Made by a program: the position numbers and the translations under genes
Notes under the pieces: generated by a model
Told to the model about the DNA's origin: nothing
Databases searched by the model: none
Seen by the model: the letters and a program-made list of their open reading frames with translations, nothing else
Shown here: positions 2,429 to 31,932 of the stretch, in pieces
How the letters are laid out: the number at the start of each line of letters is the position of its first letter
How positions within the stretch are numbered: the first letter of the stretch is position 1
From: Peptococcaceae bacterium
GTDB taxonomy: Bacteria > Bacillota > Peptococcia > DRI-13
Reading direction: 5' to 3'
DNA: 32,115 nt
Assembly: GCA_020054815.1 (NCBI GenBank)
Contig: JAIHAN010000015.1
Coordinates: 1-32,115, forward strand

Positions 2429-4171
2429 TTATCTTTTCTGAAGCATAAACCTGTTTACTTCCCGGCTCAGTTCCTCTGCCATATGGGCCAGATTTTGGCT
2501 GGTAGCCGAAAGTTCTTCCATAGTGGCTGCCTGCTCCTGAGTGGCTGCCGAAACAGTCTGGGTGCCGCCTGCTATTTCTTTGCTAATACTATCGATATTG
2601 CGGATGGCGTTTACTATTTGTTCACTGCCGCTGGCCATCTGCTGGGTGGAGGCCGTTATCTCCTGAAGCTGGGTAATAACTTGCTGGATAGAATCCAAAA
2701 TGGTGTTAAAGGTCTTTCCGGCATTGTTGCTGACCTCGGTACCGATTTTGATAACCTGTATACTGCTCTTCATAGACTGCACGGCGTTTTCGGTATCCTT
2801 CTGTATTTCGCTGATAAGTAAAGCAATTTTTTTCGTAGCTTCCTGGGACTGCTCGGCCAGTTTGCGTACTTCCTCAGCTACTACGGCAAAACCTCTGCCA
2901 TGTTCACCTGCCCGGGCTGATTCAATGGCCGCATTGAGAGCCAGGAGATTAGTCTGCTCAGCGATGCTGGAGATGGTTGTGACGATTTGGCCTATTTCTT
3001 TAGAGCTTTCGCCCAGCCTGTAAACTACCTCAGCTACTGAGGAGGAAGTTGTCTCAATGGTGCTCATCTGTTTGCTTACTTCATCTATCACTTTTCCGCC
3101 ATTTTTGGCCAATTCAGAGGTTTTTTGGGATACATTAGATAACTCGCCGGCACTGGCTGCCACCTGGTCAATGGCGGCTGACATCTCTTCGATAACTGAC
3201 ACAGTATCATCTATGGAGCTTGACTGTTTTTCAGCGCCTTTGGCCACAGCAGTAATTGTTTCGGCCACCTGGTTGGCAGCCTGGGAGGTTTGTTCAGCTG
3301 CCGAAGCTGCGTGCTGGGATAGGGTTGTAATAGCATTGGAACTATCTTTTATTTTCCAGAGAACATCTAAGAAATTATCCTGGATTTTATTTATGGCATT
3401 GGCTAAGATACCAATTTCATCAGAACTGCTTTTCGTCTTTTCACTGATTTCGTCTCTCAGGTCTCCTTCGGCATATTGATTTGCTACGTTGGCCATCTCC
3501 AGGATAGGATTGCGAATAATTTTTGTTAAAAAGAAACTCAGAATACCTCCTATAACTACCGCTATTCCGGTCATGAGTAAAGCTGTAAATATAACTCTAT
3601 TAGTTTCCGAGCGTGATTTTTCTAATTGGGTTAGAATAAGCTTCTCATTTTCGTGGAGTAATTCCTCAATAGACGCTGATAACTTGTTTGTTATAGGAAT
3701 CAGGGTATTAGCAATAACGAGGGTCTTTTCTTTTAATAACTTTGCATCCTCCAACTTACCTTCGGCTAATGCTTGATGATGCTGCCTGGCAATGGGGGCA
3801 AGATCTTTTAGTAAACCGTCTTTGTAGGAAGTAGTGACTTTGATAAGGTCCTGTACATGCTCTTTTCTTTCGGGTTTCGCTATTTTAAGGAGTTCATCCT
3901 CCAGTTTTAAGGTGTTGTTCATGGCCGTTTCAACTTGTTGGTAATACTTCTCGTCGCCATAGGCGATAAAGGCCCGGATAGCTGCTACCCCGCTTTTAAA
4001 TTCACTCTCAATTTCTGCTTCCAGTACCAACCGCCGGTTGGACAGCTCAACATCCTTTATTAATTCTTTTGTATCTTTGAGGTTTATATAGGAATAACCT
4101 CCGAGAATACCTATCAGCAAGAGCATGATTAGGAAACCGCCGCTGATTTTTTTGCCGATGCTAATTTTCAT
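2429..4171 (-). CDS. Methyl-accepting chemotaxis protein (two TM, 4HB-like sensor region, HAMP, MA signalling domain)
   Basis: Hairpin-tip signature EISSIAEQTNLLALNAAIESARAGEHGRGFAVVAEEVRKLAEQS; HAMP-like RNPILEMANVANQYAEGDL. The track start at 4198 is probably too early: the RBS AAAGAGGTG precedes MKISIGKK at 4171. Confidence 0.93.
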   Translation of the reverse strand: MKISIGKKISGGFLIMLLLIGILGGYSYINLKDTKELIKDVELSNRRLVLEAEIESEFKSGVAAIRAFIAYGDEKYYQQVETAMNNTLKLEDELLKIAKPERKEHVQDLIKVTTSYKDGLLKDLAPIARQHHQALAEGKLEDAKLLKEKTLVIANTLIPITNKLSASIEELLHENEKLILTQLEKSRSETNRVIFTALLMTGIAVVIGGILSFFLTKIIRNPILEMANVANQYAEGDLRDEISEKTKSSSDEIGILANAINKIQDNFLDVLWKIKDSSNAITTLSQHAASAAEQTSQAANQVAETITAVAKGAEKQSSSIDDTVSVIEEMSAAIDQVAASAGELSNVSQKTSELAKNGGKVIDEVSKQMSTIETTSSSVAEVVYRLGESSKEIGQIVTTISSIAEQTNLLALNAAIESARAGEHGRGFAVVAEEVRKLAEQSQEATKKIALLISEIQKDTENAVQSMKSSIQVIKIGTEVSNNAGKTFNTILDSIQQVITQLQEITASTQQMASGSEQIVNAIRNIDSISKEIAGGTQTVSAATQEQAATMEELSATSQNLAHMAEELSREVNRFMLQKR

Positions 4172-4299
4172 GAGCAGCACCTCTTTCTCATCCGACATAA
4201 ATCTGCTGTATATGCTAAATTATACTATATTCTGGTATAAATATCTAATTATCTAGAATGTAATAAAACTGTATACTTTTTCATCACCTTTCGTTTTTT

Positions 4300-4440
4300 C
4301 CCAAATAAAGTAGTAGCGTAGGCGTCCCATGGCAAAAAATGTCGCTAATCCCTTGAATTCCACTGTTAAGGGGATTATAATAAGATGAAGCCACCATGCA
4401 AGTAACCTCTCGTTCCCTGAGGGATGAGAGGTTTTCACAC
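4300..4440 (+). promoter_or_regulatory. Structured leader upstream of leuS, possible degenerate T-box element
   Basis: Stems TAGCG..CGCTA, AATCCCTT..AAGGGGATT and AACCTCTCGTTCCCTGAGGGATGAGAGGTTTT; AAGTAACCTCTCG plus a terminator-like hairpin resembles the 3' end of T-box leaders, but canonical UGGNACCGCG is not intact. Confidence 0.35.
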
Positions 4441-25356: not shown

Positions 25357-25390
25357 TTGACAAAAAAAAAGGCAAGTGGTATGTTAAAAT
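25357..25390 (+). promoter_or_regulatory. Sigma-A type promoter for the heat-shock operon
   Basis: TTGACA (25357-25362), 17-nt spacer, TATGTT / nearby TAAAAT, immediately upstream of CIRCE. Confidence 0.6.
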
Positions 25391-25398
25391 AGAAAACT

Positions 25399-25425
25399 TT
25401 AGCACTCGATAGAGGGGAGTGCTAA
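25399..25425 (+). promoter_or_regulatory. CIRCE operator (HrcA binding site)
   Basis: TTAGCACTC-N9-GAGTGCTAA, perfect consensus. Confidence 0.98.
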
Positions 25426-25442: not shown

Positions 25443-26468
25443 ATGAAAATGGATGAAAGAAAACAAAAAGTTTTACAGGCTATCATCCTGGATTACATTG
25501 CTACCGCGGAACCTGTTGGCTCTCGTACTATTTCCCGTAAATATAACCTGGGTGTAAGCCCGGCTACCGTAAGAAATGAAATGGCCGACCTGGAAGAATT
25601 GGGTTTGATTGAACAGCCCCATACTTCTGCCGGAAGGATACCTTCCCAGTCAGGTTACAGATATTATGTGGACTGTCTGATGGAAAAAGAGCCTTTGGAT
25701 AGAGATATCAAAGACATGATCAGCAAGGCCATGATGGTGAGAATCCGGGAAACGGAGGCGCTGATTCAGGTTTCCAGCAAACTGTTATCCCAACTGACTA
25801 ATTACACGGCCCTTGTCCTGGCTCCTGCCTTGGGCAGGAATGCCCTGAGGCACCTGCAGATCTTACCTATTGATGACAGTAAGGCTGTGGTGGTGATGGT
25901 GCTTGATAACGGCCACGTGGAACATAAGGTAATTGATGTTCCCGGAGGCTTAAATCATGAAGACTTCACCGCCATTTCCCGGGTGCTCAATGAACGGCTG
26001 TATGGTCTCTCCGTTGAACAATGGCGTCCTACCATCCTGCAAACCATCTATCATGAACTGCTCTACCAGAAAAAACTGCTGAACAGTGTGATTGAGCTGG
26101 TAGAAAACGCCATTAGCCTGGAAGAGGAGAATAAAGTTTACCTGGGAGGAACCTTAAACATCCTGAACCAGCCCGAATTTAAAGACATTGAAAAGGTAAA
26201 AGGGCTCCTGGAACTCCTGGAGCAGGAAGCGGCTATAAAAGAGGTATTGCATCCCGCCCCGGAGGCCGGGATTACGGTAAAGATCGGCTCGGAGAATATC
26301 CATCAGAGCATGAAAAACTGCAGCCTGATTACAGCCACTTACCACCTGAACGGGCGGGTGATCGGCACTTTAGGAGTATTAGGGCCTACCCGTATGGAAT
26401 ATTCTAAAGCTGTGAGTATTCTGGAATATATAACAGAAGCCTTATCCAAAGCCATTACAAGGCTATAA
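25443..26468 (+). CDS. hrcA: Heat-inducible transcription repressor HrcA
   Basis: MDERKQKVLQAIILDYIATAEPVGSRTISRKYNLGVSPATVRNEMADLEELGLIEQPHTSAGRIPSQSGYRYYVD; the ATG at 25443 is preferable to the track start inside CIRCE. Confidence 0.97.
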   Translation: MKMDERKQKVLQAIILDYIATAEPVGSRTISRKYNLGVSPATVRNEMADLEELGLIEQPHTSAGRIPSQSGYRYYVDCLMEKEPLDRDIKDMISKAMMVRIRETEALIQVSSKLLSQLTNYTALVLAPALGRNALRHLQILPIDDSKAVVVMVLDNGHVEHKVIDVPGGLNHEDFTAISRVLNERLYGLSVEQWRPTILQTIYHELLYQKKLLNSVIELVENAISLEEENKVYLGGTLNILNQPEFKDIEKVKGLLELLEQEAAIKEVLHPAPEAGITVKIGSENIHQSMKNCSLITATYHLNGRVIGTLGVLGPTRMEYSKAVSILEYITEALSKAITRL

Positions 26469-26489: not shown

Positions 26490-28061
26490 ATGAGTGTAAA
26501 ACAACAAGTCACGCAGAACTCTGAGGTGGATGAAAGACTGGCGGCCCTGATGACCAATGCCAATGCCATCAGGGCCATTGCCCAGGCCGTAGAAGGGACC
26601 ATTGGACCCAAAGGCCTGGATACCATGCTGGTAGACCAGTTTGGTGATGTGGTCATTACCAATGACGGTGTAACGATCCTGGATATGATGGATGTCAATC
26701 ACCCGGCGGCCAGGATGCTCATTAAGATCGCCAAGGCTCAGCAGGAGGAAATCGGCGACGGCACCACCACGGCTACCATTATGGCGGGGGCTCTGGTCAG
26801 CGAGGGTGTGGCTCAGGTTTTAAAGGGCGTACCTGTGGCCAAAGTCATCGAGGGGTTACGTATTGGGGTCAAGAGAGCCCTCTCTGTCCTGGAGGCTAAG
26901 ACCATCCAGATAAAGGACATCCGGGACCCTCTATTGAAGCAGGTAGCCCTGGTGGCAGGCCGGGAGAACGAGGATATTGCCGAACTGGTGGTGCAGGCTG
27001 CCATTTTGATGGGCGAGGAAAAGCTTCGCGATCCTTCCTTTAAATTGGCGGAAATCATCCGCGCTGAGGAAGGTGCGGAGAACCAGGTGGTACCCGGGGT
27101 GATCATCAACAAAGAGCCCATGAATTCGGAAATGCCAAAGAAACTGGGGCCTGTAAAGGTCCTGGTTATTGATGATGCCCTGGAACCTGAGGAGGTTGAG
27201 GATGAAGCCCTGGCTACGGAGGCCGGTTTTACGCGTTATCTGGCCCTGCAGGAAGAATTCAGGAACAACATCAAAAAAATTATAGAAGCCGGTGTTAACC
27301 TGATCCTGGTTGACCGGGGAGTAGATGCTGCTGCGGAAGAGTTTCTGACCGACCATCAGGTCATGGTGCTGCAGCGGGTTTCCAATCGAGAACTGCGCCG
27401 GGCCGGCGAACATACCGGAGCCAGGCTGTTAAAAAGAACCGGTTTAAAAAAAGAATTAGCTGAGCTGGAAAAATATACCGGCAGTGCCCGGGAGGCCTTC
27501 CTGGATGAAAAATTAGAGCATGTGCGCCTGCTGGGGGGTGCAGGTAAAGCCGAGGCGACTATCCTCGTAGGTGCTTCCACAGAAGAGGTTGTGGGCGAGC
27601 GGGAACGTATCGCCAAAGATGCCGCTTCCGCCATACAGGCTGCAGTCAGAGGCGGTATTGTCCCGGGAGGAGGGTCTATAGAACTGGCCATCGCCCGGCA
27701 CATCGAGGAGGCCCGTAAAGATGTCCGGGGCATGGCAGCCTATGGCCTGGATTGTGTGATTGCGGCCCTCAAGAAGCCTTTCTCGCAAATTGTCCTCAAT
27801 GCCGGTTTTAATCCCCTGGAGAAACTGGGAGATGTTATGGCAGCCCAGGCCGAAAGCGGTCTCGACTCTTTAGGTATCGACTGTGATACCGGGGAAGTAA
27901 AGGACATGGGCCAACTCGGTGTATTTGACCCTGCCCTGGTTAAAAAGCATGCCCTTAAGGCTGCGGGGGAGGTAGCGGAAGCTATTCTACGCATTGATAC
28001 AATTATCAAAAAGAAAGAAACAAAGCCGCACAATGATGTGAAAGGCGAAGATTTTGTCTAG
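26490..28061 (+). CDS. Thermosome/CCT-like chaperonin, matches bacterial Group III chaperonin (Carboxydothermus Ch-CPN type)
   Basis: AVEGTIGPKGLDTMLVDQFGDVVITNDGVTILDMMDVNHPAARMLIKIAKAQQEEIGDGTTTATIMAG; VPGGGSIELAIA; GVFDPALVKKHALKAAGEVAEAILRIDTIIKKK; retains a segment at the position of the helical-protrusion lid; no GroEL GGM tail. Confidence 0.95.
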   Translation: MSVKQQVTQNSEVDERLAALMTNANAIRAIAQAVEGTIGPKGLDTMLVDQFGDVVITNDGVTILDMMDVNHPAARMLIKIAKAQQEEIGDGTTTATIMAGALVSEGVAQVLKGVPVAKVIEGLRIGVKRALSVLEAKTIQIKDIRDPLLKQVALVAGRENEDIAELVVQAAILMGEEKLRDPSFKLAEIIRAEEGAENQVVPGVIINKEPMNSEMPKKLGPVKVLVIDDALEPEEVEDEALATEAGFTRYLALQEEFRNNIKKIIEAGVNLILVDRGVDAAAEEFLTDHQVMVLQRVSNRELRRAGEHTGARLLKRTGLKKELAELEKYTGSAREAFLDEKLEHVRLLGGAGKAEATILVGASTEEVVGERERIAKDAASAIQAAVRGGIVPGGGSIELAIARHIEEARKDVRGMAAYGLDCVIAALKKPFSQIVLNAGFNPLEKLGDVMAAQAESGLDSLGIDCDTGEVKDMGQLGVFDPALVKKHALKAAGEVAEAILRIDTIIKKKETKPHNDVKGEDFV

Positions 28062-28071
28062 GTGGTGACAA

Positions 28072-28665
28072 GTGATGGAAAAAGACAGGCCGAATCCTCA
28101 GGAAACAGCCGGCACCGAAAGGGAACCGGCGGAAGAGATGAACATGAATCCCGATGAAGAAAACATGGGGATGGAATCTGAGGAAAAACCGGGTAATGAA
28201 TTAGAAATGCAGCTGGCCCAAAAAAACGCAGAGGTGGAAGAATTAAAGGAGAGAATTCTCAGGCTGCATGCGGACTTTGACAACTACCGCAAGCGTACCA
28301 ATAAGGAAAAAGAAGAGTGGTTCCAATATGCTTCGCAAGGTGTGGTGATAAATCTCCTGCCTGTCCTTGACAACCTGGAACGAGCCCTGGGTTCTATGGA
28401 ACAACAGGTGGAAGACAAACAGGGTCTGATGGCAGGTGTCAATATGATTTACCGGCAGCTCATGGATGTGCTCCAGCGGGAAGGCTTACAGCCTATCGAG
28501 GCTTTAGGCCGGCTTTTTGATCCCCTGCTCCATGAAGCCATTATGCAGGTACCTGTCGAAGAGGGTCAGGAGGACAATTTAATTGTGGAAGAACTGCGCA
28601 AAGGCTATCGTTTTAAAGATAAAGTAATCAGACCAACTATGGTTAAAGTTGCAAAAAACATGTAA
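28072..28665 (+). CDS. grpE: Nucleotide exchange factor GrpE
   Basis: ILRLHADFDNYRKRTNKEKEEW, LPVLDNLERAL, LHEAIMQVP...; between chaperonin and dnaK. Confidence 0.96.
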   Translation: MMEKDRPNPQETAGTEREPAEEMNMNPDEENMGMESEEKPGNELEMQLAQKNAEVEELKERILRLHADFDNYRKRTNKEKEEWFQYASQGVVINLLPVLDNLERALGSMEQQVEDKQGLMAGVNMIYRQLMDVLQREGLQPIEALGRLFDPLLHEAIMQVPVEEGQEDNLIVEELRKGYRFKDKVIRPTMVKVAKNM

Positions 28666-28686: not shown

Positions 28687-30516
28687 ATGAGCAAAGTGAT
28701 AGGCATTGACTTAGGTACTACTAACTCCTGTGTAGCATTTATGGAAGGTGGAGAAGCTGTTGTCATCCCTAATGCTGAAGGAAACAGGACCACTCCTTCT
28801 GTGGTAGCTTTCTCCAAGTCGGGAGAGCGGCTGGTGGGCCAGGTGGCCAAACGCCAGGCCATTACCAACCCTGACCGTACCATCATCTCCATTAAACGTC
28901 ATATGGGTACTGATCACAAAGTCCGTATTGATGATAAGGAATATACACCCCAGGAAATCTCCGCCATGATCCTGCAAAAGCTGAAAGCTGATGCGGAAAG
29001 TTACCTGGGAACTAAAGTCACCCAGGCCGTTATTACTGTACCTGCTTACTTTACCGACAGCCAGCGCCAGGCTACCCGTGATGCCGGTCGTATTGCCGGT
29101 TTGGAGGTCTTACGTATTATCAACGAGCCTACCGCCGCTGCCCTGGCTTATGGTCTCGACAAGGAAGAAGACCAGACCATCCTGGTCTATGACTTAGGGG
29201 GGGGAACTTTCGACGTTTCCATCCTGGAACTGGGTGACGGTGTTTTTGAAGTAAAAGCCACCAGCGGCAATAACCGCCTGGGCGGTGATGACTTTGACGA
29301 GCGCATCATCAACTGGATGGTAGAGGAATTTAAGAAACAGACGGGTATCGACCTCAAGTCTGACAGAATGGCCTTACAGCGCCTCAAGGAAGCCGCTGAG
29401 AAAGCCAAGCATGAATTATCCTCCGTGCTCACTACAAATATTAACCTTCCTTTTATTACGGCAACGGCAGAGGGGCCGCAGCACCTGGATTTAACCCTGA
29501 CCAGGGCTAAATTTAATGAACTCACCGCTGACCTGGTGGAAATGACCATGGGTCCCACCCGCCAGGCTTTAAGAGATGCCGGGCTGGATGTCAAGGATAT
29601 TGATAAGATCCTCCTGGTAGGCGGTTCCACCAGGATCCCAGCCGTACAGGATGCCATCAGGAATCTTTTGGGCAAGGAGCCCTTCAAGGGCATCAACCCC
29701 GATGAATGTGTGGCCATCGGTGCTGCTATCCAGGCAGGGGTACTGGCCGGAGAAGTAAAAGATGTTCTGCTTTTGGACGTTACACCTCTTTCCCTGGGTA
29801 TTGAGACCCTGGGCGGGGTATTTACCCGCCTGATTGAGCGCAATACCACCATTCCTACTTCCAAGAGCCAGATTTTCTCTACAGCTGCCGATAACCAGAC
29901 AACAGTAGAAATTCATGTGCTGCAGGGTGAACGGGAAATGGCTGCCTACAACAAGACCCTGGGCCGTTTCCAGCTTACCGGTATTCCTCCTGCCCCCAGG
30001 GGTGTGCCTCAGATTGAAGTCAAGTTCGACATTGATGCCAACGGTATCGTCAACGTATCGGCGAAGGACCTGGGAACAGGTAAAGAACAGAAAATTACCA
30101 TTACCGCTTCCACGGGGCTTTCCAAAGATGAGATCGAAAGAATGGTAAAAGAAGCGGAAAAGAACGCTGCTGAAGATAAGAAACGTAAAGAAGAGGCGGA
30201 AATCAGGAACCAGGCTGACAACCTCATCTATCAGACGGAAAAAACCCTGAAAGAGGCGGGGGATAAGGCCGACAAAGGGGAAGTAGACAAGATTAATGAG
30301 GCCAAGGAAGCCTTGAAGAACGCCATGCAGAGTAACAATGTGGAAGAAATCAAGGCTAAGTCGGAAGCCCTTACCAATGTCCTGTATCAGCTCACTGCCA
30401 AAATGTACCAGAATGCCGGTGCCGGGGCCCCCGGTGGGGAAGGGCCCAAGGAGGGAGCCGGCAAGAGCCAGGATAATGTGGTTGACGCCGATTATGAAAT
30501 TAAGGAAGATAAATAA
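28687..30516 (+). CDS. dnaK: Chaperone DnaK (Hsp70)
   Basis: [73 protein letters not shown]; 609 aa. Confidence 0.99.
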
Positions 30517-30518
30517 TT

Positions 30519-30568
30519 AAGAAAAGGCTCCCGCCAAGGTGAGGACTTTGGCGTGAGCCCTCTTTCTT
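30519..30568 (+). terminator. Hairpin between dnaK and dnaJ (attenuator/terminator-like)
   Basis: AAGAAAAGGCTCCCGCCAA-loop-TTGGCGTGAGCCCTCTTTCTT; U-tract is not continuous. Confidence 0.6.
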
Positions 30569-30606
30569 GATAACCTTTTCGGTGAACAGTGACCTGTAAC
30601 CCGAAG

Positions 30607-30763
30607 CGGTGACCGGTGACCAGGATCAGTGATCGGTGACCAGTGACCAGTTAATAAACCGGACTCCGGACACTGGGCTCCGGTCATTTACACAGGTGCC
30701 GGACTCCGGACACTGGACTCCGGTCACTGAATTCGGATATCGGATGTCGGTAAGCGGAAATCG
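30607..30763. repeat. Mosaic intergenic element (copy B) with internal 28-nt duplication
   Basis: CCGGACTCCGGACACTGGGCTCCGGTCA (30659-30686) repeated with one mismatch at 30699-30726; flanked by GTGACCGGTGACC heptamer-like arrays and TTCGGATATCGGATGTCGG. Confidence 0.8.
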
Positions 30764-30789
30764 TTTAAAAGAGTGAGGAGGTGACACCG

Positions 30790-31932
30790 GTGGCCAAAAG
30801 AGACTATTATGAGGTATTAGGTGTAGAACGAAATGCCTCAGAGACAGAAATAAAGAAAGCATACAGGAAGTTGGCCCGGCAGTATCACCCTGATGTAAAC
30901 CCAGGCGACAAAACTGCTGAGGAAAGATTCAAGGAAATCAATGAAGCCTATGAAGTTCTAAGTGACCCCGATAAGCGGGCACGCTATGATCAGTTTGGTC
31001 ATGCCGGTACCGATCCCAACGGTTTTGGCGGCTTTGGAGGCTTTGGCGGAGCCGGTGACTTTACCGGATTTGGCGATATTTTTGATATGTTCTTTGGGGG
31101 AGCCGCCCAAAGAGCCAACCGGGGACCGCAAGTCGGTTCCGATTTACGCCTCGATCTGGAATTAACCTTTGAAGAGGCTGCCTTTGGTGTGGAAAAGGAT
31201 ATTGAATTACCCAGGTTAGAAAACTGTCCTACCTGTGAAGGCACCGGCGCCAAACCGGGAACCCGTCCCGCTGCCTGTCCCAAGTGCCAGGGTACAGGTC
31301 AGGTGCGCTATACGCAAAAAACGATGCTCGGCCATTTCCAGACCATCAAGACCTGTCCGGAATGCGGCGGTGAAGGCAAAGTCATTACCACACCCTGTCC
31401 TGAATGTCACGGTAAAGGTAAGATACGTAAGACCCGTAAACTCCACATCAAGATTCCTGCCGGTGTGGATACAGGTTCACGCATTCGCTTAGCAGGAGAA
31501 GGTGAGGCCGGCCTCAGAGGCGGGCCGCCCGGAGACCTCTATGTCTATATTGAAGTAAGACCCCATAAAATCTTTGAAAGACATGGGGACGATATATATT
31601 TGGAAATGCCTATTACTTTCGTACAGGCAGCCCTGGGAGACGAAATTAAAGTGCCTACCCTGGAGGGGAAGGCTGCTTTAAGAATTCCCGAAGGGACCCA
31701 GACAGGTACTGTTTTCCGCCTCCGCGGTCAGGGTATACCCCATCTGAAGGGGAGTGGCCGGGGAGACCAGCACGTGAAAGTGGTCGTGGTTACTCCCACC
31801 AAGCTTTCGGAAGAACAGAAAAAATTATTGCGGGACTTTGCGAAAGTAAGCGGTGAAGAAAATTACAGGCCCCAGGAAAAGGGGAAGGAAAAAGGGATCT
31901 TTGAGCGGCTTTGGGATTCTCTGAAGGGTTAG
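30790..31932 (+). CDS. dnaJ: Chaperone DnaJ (Hsp40)
   Basis: [38 protein letters not shown]-rich region, four CxxCxGxG zinc motifs; GTG 30790 follows GGAGG. Confidence 0.98.

Follow-up and report, generated by a model that had tools for sequence, protein, structure and literature searches.

The stretch of DNA considered here (the window) comprises 32,115 nucleotides of contig JAIHAN010000015.1 from a Peptococcaceae bacterium, and it carries a heat shock operon in which a gene for a thermosome-like chaperonin lies between hrcA and grpE. The features of the locus are listed below, where Ch-CPN denotes the chaperonin of Carboxydothermus hydrogenoformans.

25357 to 25385, forward strand: sigma-A-like promoter, TTGACA-17-TATGTT, 5' of CIRCE; 10 of 12 consensus positions, with TG before the -10 element (a consensus match only).
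25399 to 25425, forward strand: CIRCE operator, TTAGCACTC-N9-GAGTGCTAA, without mismatches; predicted HrcA binding site.
25443 to 26468, forward strand: hrcA, heat-inducible transcription repressor (TIGR00331, 364 bits against a cut-off of 197).
26490 to 28061, forward strand: Group III (thermosome-like) chaperonin gene, 523 amino acids; ATG start, with a ribosome-binding-like GGAGG just upstream.
26961 to 26963, forward strand: R158, the γ-phosphate arginine (equivalent to R155 of Ch-CPN), beside which a six-residue nucleotide-sensing loop is missing; from alignment.
27174 to 27278, forward strand: built-in lid, residues 229 to 263, two helices with L241, F247, Y250 and F257; from alignment to the Ch-CPN lid and predicted helices.
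28072 to 28665, forward strand: grpE, DnaK nucleotide exchange factor (PF01025, E 2.5e-50); the start is probably ATG 28075.
28687 to 30516, forward strand: dnaK (Hsp70; PRK00290, 1011 bits).
30781 to 31932, forward strand: dnaJ (Hsp40; TIGR02349, 495 bits).

The chaperonin reading frame is intact, without an internal stop, and is separated by 21 bases from hrcA and, beyond its stop codon, by 10–13 bp from grpE. The hrcA-grpE-dnaK-dnaJ context claimed in a preliminary description of this DNA was verified by family models for every neighbor. CIRCE is expected by chance at only 0.01 matches even with 3 mismatches allowed, and the ATG at 25443 is favored as the hrcA start because a start at GTG 25419 would overlap the operator. 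Co-transcription of the chaperonin gene with hrcA, grpE, and dnaK from a single CIRCE-controlled promoter is predicted from this arrangement, and expression of dnaJ may be partly separate from that of the rest of the operon. The 264 bases between dnaK and dnaJ (30517–30780) contain a hairpin-like stretch right after dnaK, at about 30526–30559, and imperfect direct repeats of the GTGACC and CCGGACTCCGGACACTGG types; an Rfam search of the window found no family. That HrcA controls both types of chaperonin in Firmicutes, and that a Group III gene resides in the dnaK operon, has already been reported (PMC5904260).

The Pfam Cpn60_TCP1 model matches the chaperonin along its full length (E 6.4e-112, residues 30–509). 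Inspection of the sequence located all of the motifs that had been quoted for it, namely GTIGPKGLD, ITNDGVTIL, HPAA, GDGTTT, VPGGGSIE, ILRIDTIIKKK, and the lid segment. GPKG, GDGTTT, and TNDG are also present in GroEL and hence do not discriminate; discrimination comes from R158, the lid, and the lack of a nucleotide-sensing loop. The GGM tail is absent. The initial characterization of the product as thermosome/CCT-like rather than GroEL-like is upheld by the family models, in that it scores 303 bits against archaeal thermosome models (under the NCBIfam cut-offs of 400 to 671) and at most 173 bits against GroEL models. The founding paper on the Group III chaperonins is reportedly that of Techtmann and Robb from 2010.

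An et al. set Group III apart by three features: an arginine at the γ-phosphate, the lack of a nucleotide-sensing loop, and a two-helix lid of reduced length in which Leu, Phe, Tyr, and Phe residues are conserved (PMC5635000). The residue at the position of R158 is Arg throughout the 88 Group III sequences, Thr in all eight of Group II and never Arg in Group I, and the stretch of the nucleotide-sensing loop spans 6 residues in the window protein where Group II has 12. Every Group III lid (88 of 88) measures 35 residues, compared with 39–41 in Group II, and L241, F247, Y250, and F257 of the window protein correspond to L237, F243, Y246, and F253 of the Ch-CPN lid. All catalytic residues of the ATP site are kept (D59, D90, T92, T94, R158, and D377, together with the GDGTTT loop), including both catalytic aspartates, D59 and D377, and the inter-ring contact residues M415, Y418, L443, K112, and E105 agree with those of Ch-CPN. 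An AlphaFold2 model of one subunit, built from an input alignment of 36 sequences (pLDDT 86.5, pTM 0.80), contains an apical protrusion formed by helices 238–242 and 244–266; its absence would have spoken against the first description. Retention of a built-in lid, as proposed there, is therefore borne out by the alignment and the predicted helices. The closest folds in the PDB are the two Ch-CPN structures, 5x9v (E 8e-52, TMq 0.88) and 5x9u (E 3e-48, TMq 0.89), followed by archaeal thermosomes, the next at E 9e-37.

Sequence searches lead to the same proteins. The best PDB matches are 9rwq, the reconstructed Group III ancestor ACIII, at 690 bits and 5x9u at 520 bits, with the best natural archaeal thermosome at 238 bits; a 63-residue apical/lid piece used alone as query again retrieved 9rwq (4.7e-20) and 5x9u (9e-16), the next match being at 0.03. 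In the PDB, the 9rwq chain bears the name “Ancestral Group II Chaperonin (ACII)”, although both the entry title and the paper identify it as ACIII, a Group III ancestor. In a tree of 100 chaperonins, all 88 Group III sequences, ACIII and Ch-CPN included, form one clade (support 0.999), outside of which fall Group II (eight sequences) and Group I (four, both GroELs of the same genome among them); with reference sets this small, the tree says little about how the groups are related at depth. The window copy clusters with 13 sequences from its own order (support 1.0) inside the Group III clade. On average it is 63% identical to the Group III sequences, 30% to those of Group II, and 28% to those of Group I. 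Clade, signature residues, and fold matches thus all agree on the Group III assignment. The protein lacks the extended nucleotide-sensing loop of Group II and is excluded from that clade; it likewise lies outside the GroEL clade, has its own lid, and has no adjoining groES partner.

These data also bear on the notion that the gene encodes a divergent GroEL (Group I) that has shed its GroES partner. The GPKG, TNDG, and GDGTTT motifs common to both types of protein would be compatible with such an origin. However, identity to GroELs, the two of the same genome included, is only 28–29%, the protein possesses an apical lid and no GGM tail, its scores with GroEL models stay far below their cut-offs of at least 352 bits, and it belongs to a separate clade. 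The idea is refuted by phylogeny and predicted fold, and we give it next to no weight; the placement within GroEL that might have overturned the preliminary description was not observed. Taken as a whole, the evidence makes it very probable that the gene product is the subunit of a Group III chaperonin, a GroES-free folding chamber with a built-in lid, expressed from a CIRCE-controlled dnaK operon.

By analogy with the solved structure of Ch-CPN, sixteen identical subunits would assemble into two stacked eight-membered rings, and ATP binding would shut each ring by means of lids formed from the subunits' own apical helical protrusions, such that unfolded protein could be enclosed to refold without a need for GroES. 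The 16-mer, its closure on ATP, the folding activity, and the independence of GroES are all inferred from that relative. Co-transcription and heat induction are likewise putative: upon heat stress, release of HrcA from CIRCE would raise the level of the chaperonin together with DnaK and GrpE, and would also raise two GroEL-GroES systems through their own CIRCE sites. It is only plausible that DnaK hands clients over to the chaperonin. Because bacteria lack prefoldin, such a hand-over has been proposed in the literature (PMC5220055; PMC5635000); what bears on it here is the fixed gene order only.

The genome from which the window derives (2.7 Mb, 81% complete) contains two further chaperonins, both GroELs and each beside a GroES (loci L002–L005, on contigs C176 and C162 of genome G000). 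The search for a separate groESL that had been suggested at the outset thus yielded two pairs, with a perfect CIRCE 5' of both groES genes, and HrcA is predicted to control all three chaperonins, since each has a perfect CIRCE upstream. The Group III chaperonin is an addition to GroESL and not its replacement; a GroEL-replacement role is ruled out by these two pairs and by the presence of GroES in 79 of the 80 Group III carriers searched. As the genome keeps two groESL pairs, GroES independence applies to the chaperonin protein and not to the cell. The sole carrier in which GroES was not found, G036, is a 260-contig draft that is 96% complete; the missing gene is probably an assembly gap, although a Group III carrier truly devoid of GroES is possible.

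The most unusual thing that we met lies outside the window. In at least eight Group III relatives (L082, L092, L095, and L206–L210, from the three families f29, f41, and f133), Ala replaces the catalytic aspartate equivalent to D59, giving TNAGVTIL in place of TNDGVTIL. These proteins keep D90, R158, and D377, and at least two changes are needed on the tree to account for them. They may hydrolyze ATP slowly or have a holdase role.

Could the window protein itself be a Group III chaperonin that no longer folds by way of an ATP cycle and acts mainly as a holdase platform, or in some other task? The two complete groESL pairs could bear the general folding load, and the loss of the catalytic aspartate from several relatives is in keeping with such a change of function. 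Against this, the catalytic residues of the window copy are all intact and Ch-CPN hydrolyzes ATP (PMC5635000), so that we consider it very improbable and retain the reading of an ATP-driven folding chamber.

The preliminary description held the family to be known but sparsely distributed, of which the first part stands and the second does not hold for the phylum. At a threshold of E 1e-60 or better, 127 of the 399 genomes sampled from the phylum, or 85 of 268 genera, contain a relative, and at 1e-30 so do 33 of the 60 nearest genomes; a single-protein scan of genome contigs had returned two close relatives only, and the distribution rests instead on the genome search. Of the Group III loci fetched, 88 show both flanks (the window is one of them, and L007 and L018 probably represent a single contig); in all 88, the gene has hrcA on one side and grpE on the other. 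A perfect CIRCE is found in 85 of the 88, and in the other three (L039, L051, and L060) hrcA is cut by the contig end. In the operons of relatives without the chaperonin gene, hrcA is followed directly by grpE. At one locus (L061, positions 2863–4402, in the one-contig genome G059), the Group III reading frame is broken into two overlapping parts within an otherwise intact operon, reflecting either gene decay or an error in sequencing.

Across 79 loci, 31 of the 38 strongly supported splits of the chaperonin tree recur in the hrcA-grpE-dnaK tree, with two in strong conflict, and the Mantel correlation between the two is 0.70, compared with 0.25 or less in 999 shuffles. This agreement with the operon neighbors argues for joint vertical inheritance, although transfer of the whole operon would produce the same result. 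A count of gains and losses on an HrcA+DnaK tree favored ancestral presence with 14 losses, a weak result in that the shuffled mean is close by, at 16.7, and the 18 gene-less operons were hand-picked for diversity.

If this lineage had recently acquired a thermosome (Group II) gene from an archaeon by horizontal transfer and taken it up into its dnaK operon, the thermosome-like fold and profile matches would be accounted for, and thermosome genes are known on haloarchaeal plasmids. Such an event is nevertheless exceedingly improbable given that identity to the Group II set is 27–39% compared with 45–99% to Group III, that the window copy groups with its own order inside the Group III clade, that the operon slot is the same in 88 loci, and that the chaperonin tree agrees with that of its neighbors. 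The tree refutes it, and the single-gene import that might have undone the original interpretation was not observed, the mean identities being 30% to Group II and 63% to Group III. A mobile or viral origin was similarly rejected: 108 phage and 1,340 plasmid records gave none at 60% identity or above, the best listed being at most 31% identical and, where annotated, GroELs or haloarchaeal thermosomes, and a scan of viral contigs gave 24–28% identity among the matches listed. We lean slightly towards the view that an early ancestor of the phylum already had the Group III gene in its CIRCE-hrcA-grpE-dnaK operon and that the gene was vertically inherited and lost many times, making it an old member of the heat shock regulon alongside GroESL and DnaK, with an altered catalytic aspartate in some lineages, and not a scattered oddity. 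Group III itself may go back to an ancient transfer; Group III-like genes have been reported from thaumarchaea (PMC5635000).

Of the known systems, Ch-CPN (5x9u, 5x9v; PMC5635000) shares with the window protein the domain plan, the R155 equivalent, the absent nucleotide-sensing loop, the short two-helix lid with its L/F/Y/F tip, the inter-ring contacts, and the location in the dnaK operon. The two are 51% identical in structural alignment and differ in the ATP pocket, where I152, M430, and F461 of Ch-CPN become V155, I434, and C465; moreover, Ch-CPN has been solved and assayed, whereas the window protein is known from sequence and model. ACIII is the nearest solved sequence and bears the same signatures, but is a reconstruction and not a natural protein, and its apical domains are unmodelled in 9rwq (PMC12696368). 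The Group II chaperonins (archaeal thermosome and eukaryotic CCT) have the overall fold and the built-in lid in common with it but differ in sequence, in a nucleotide-sensing loop six residues longer, in a lid longer by at least four, and in the Thr at the position of R158. The two GroEL-GroES pairs encoded in this genome share the chaperonin fold, the ATP site, and a CIRCE in front of each, but form a separate clade, without a built-in lid and with a groES partner.

The literature already covers the fold, the family, the place in the operon, and the regulation, and the window gene alone is one more sequence in a described family; the survey is the more useful result. The gene occurs in about one-third of the genomes sampled from the phylum, and its operon slot never varies, which lends weight to the published idea of a working link with DnaK; this constancy, together with the wide spread, speaks against the gene having been taken from archaea repeatedly in recent times. 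In tractable carriers, the role of a third chaperonin beside GroEL could be addressed by deletion.
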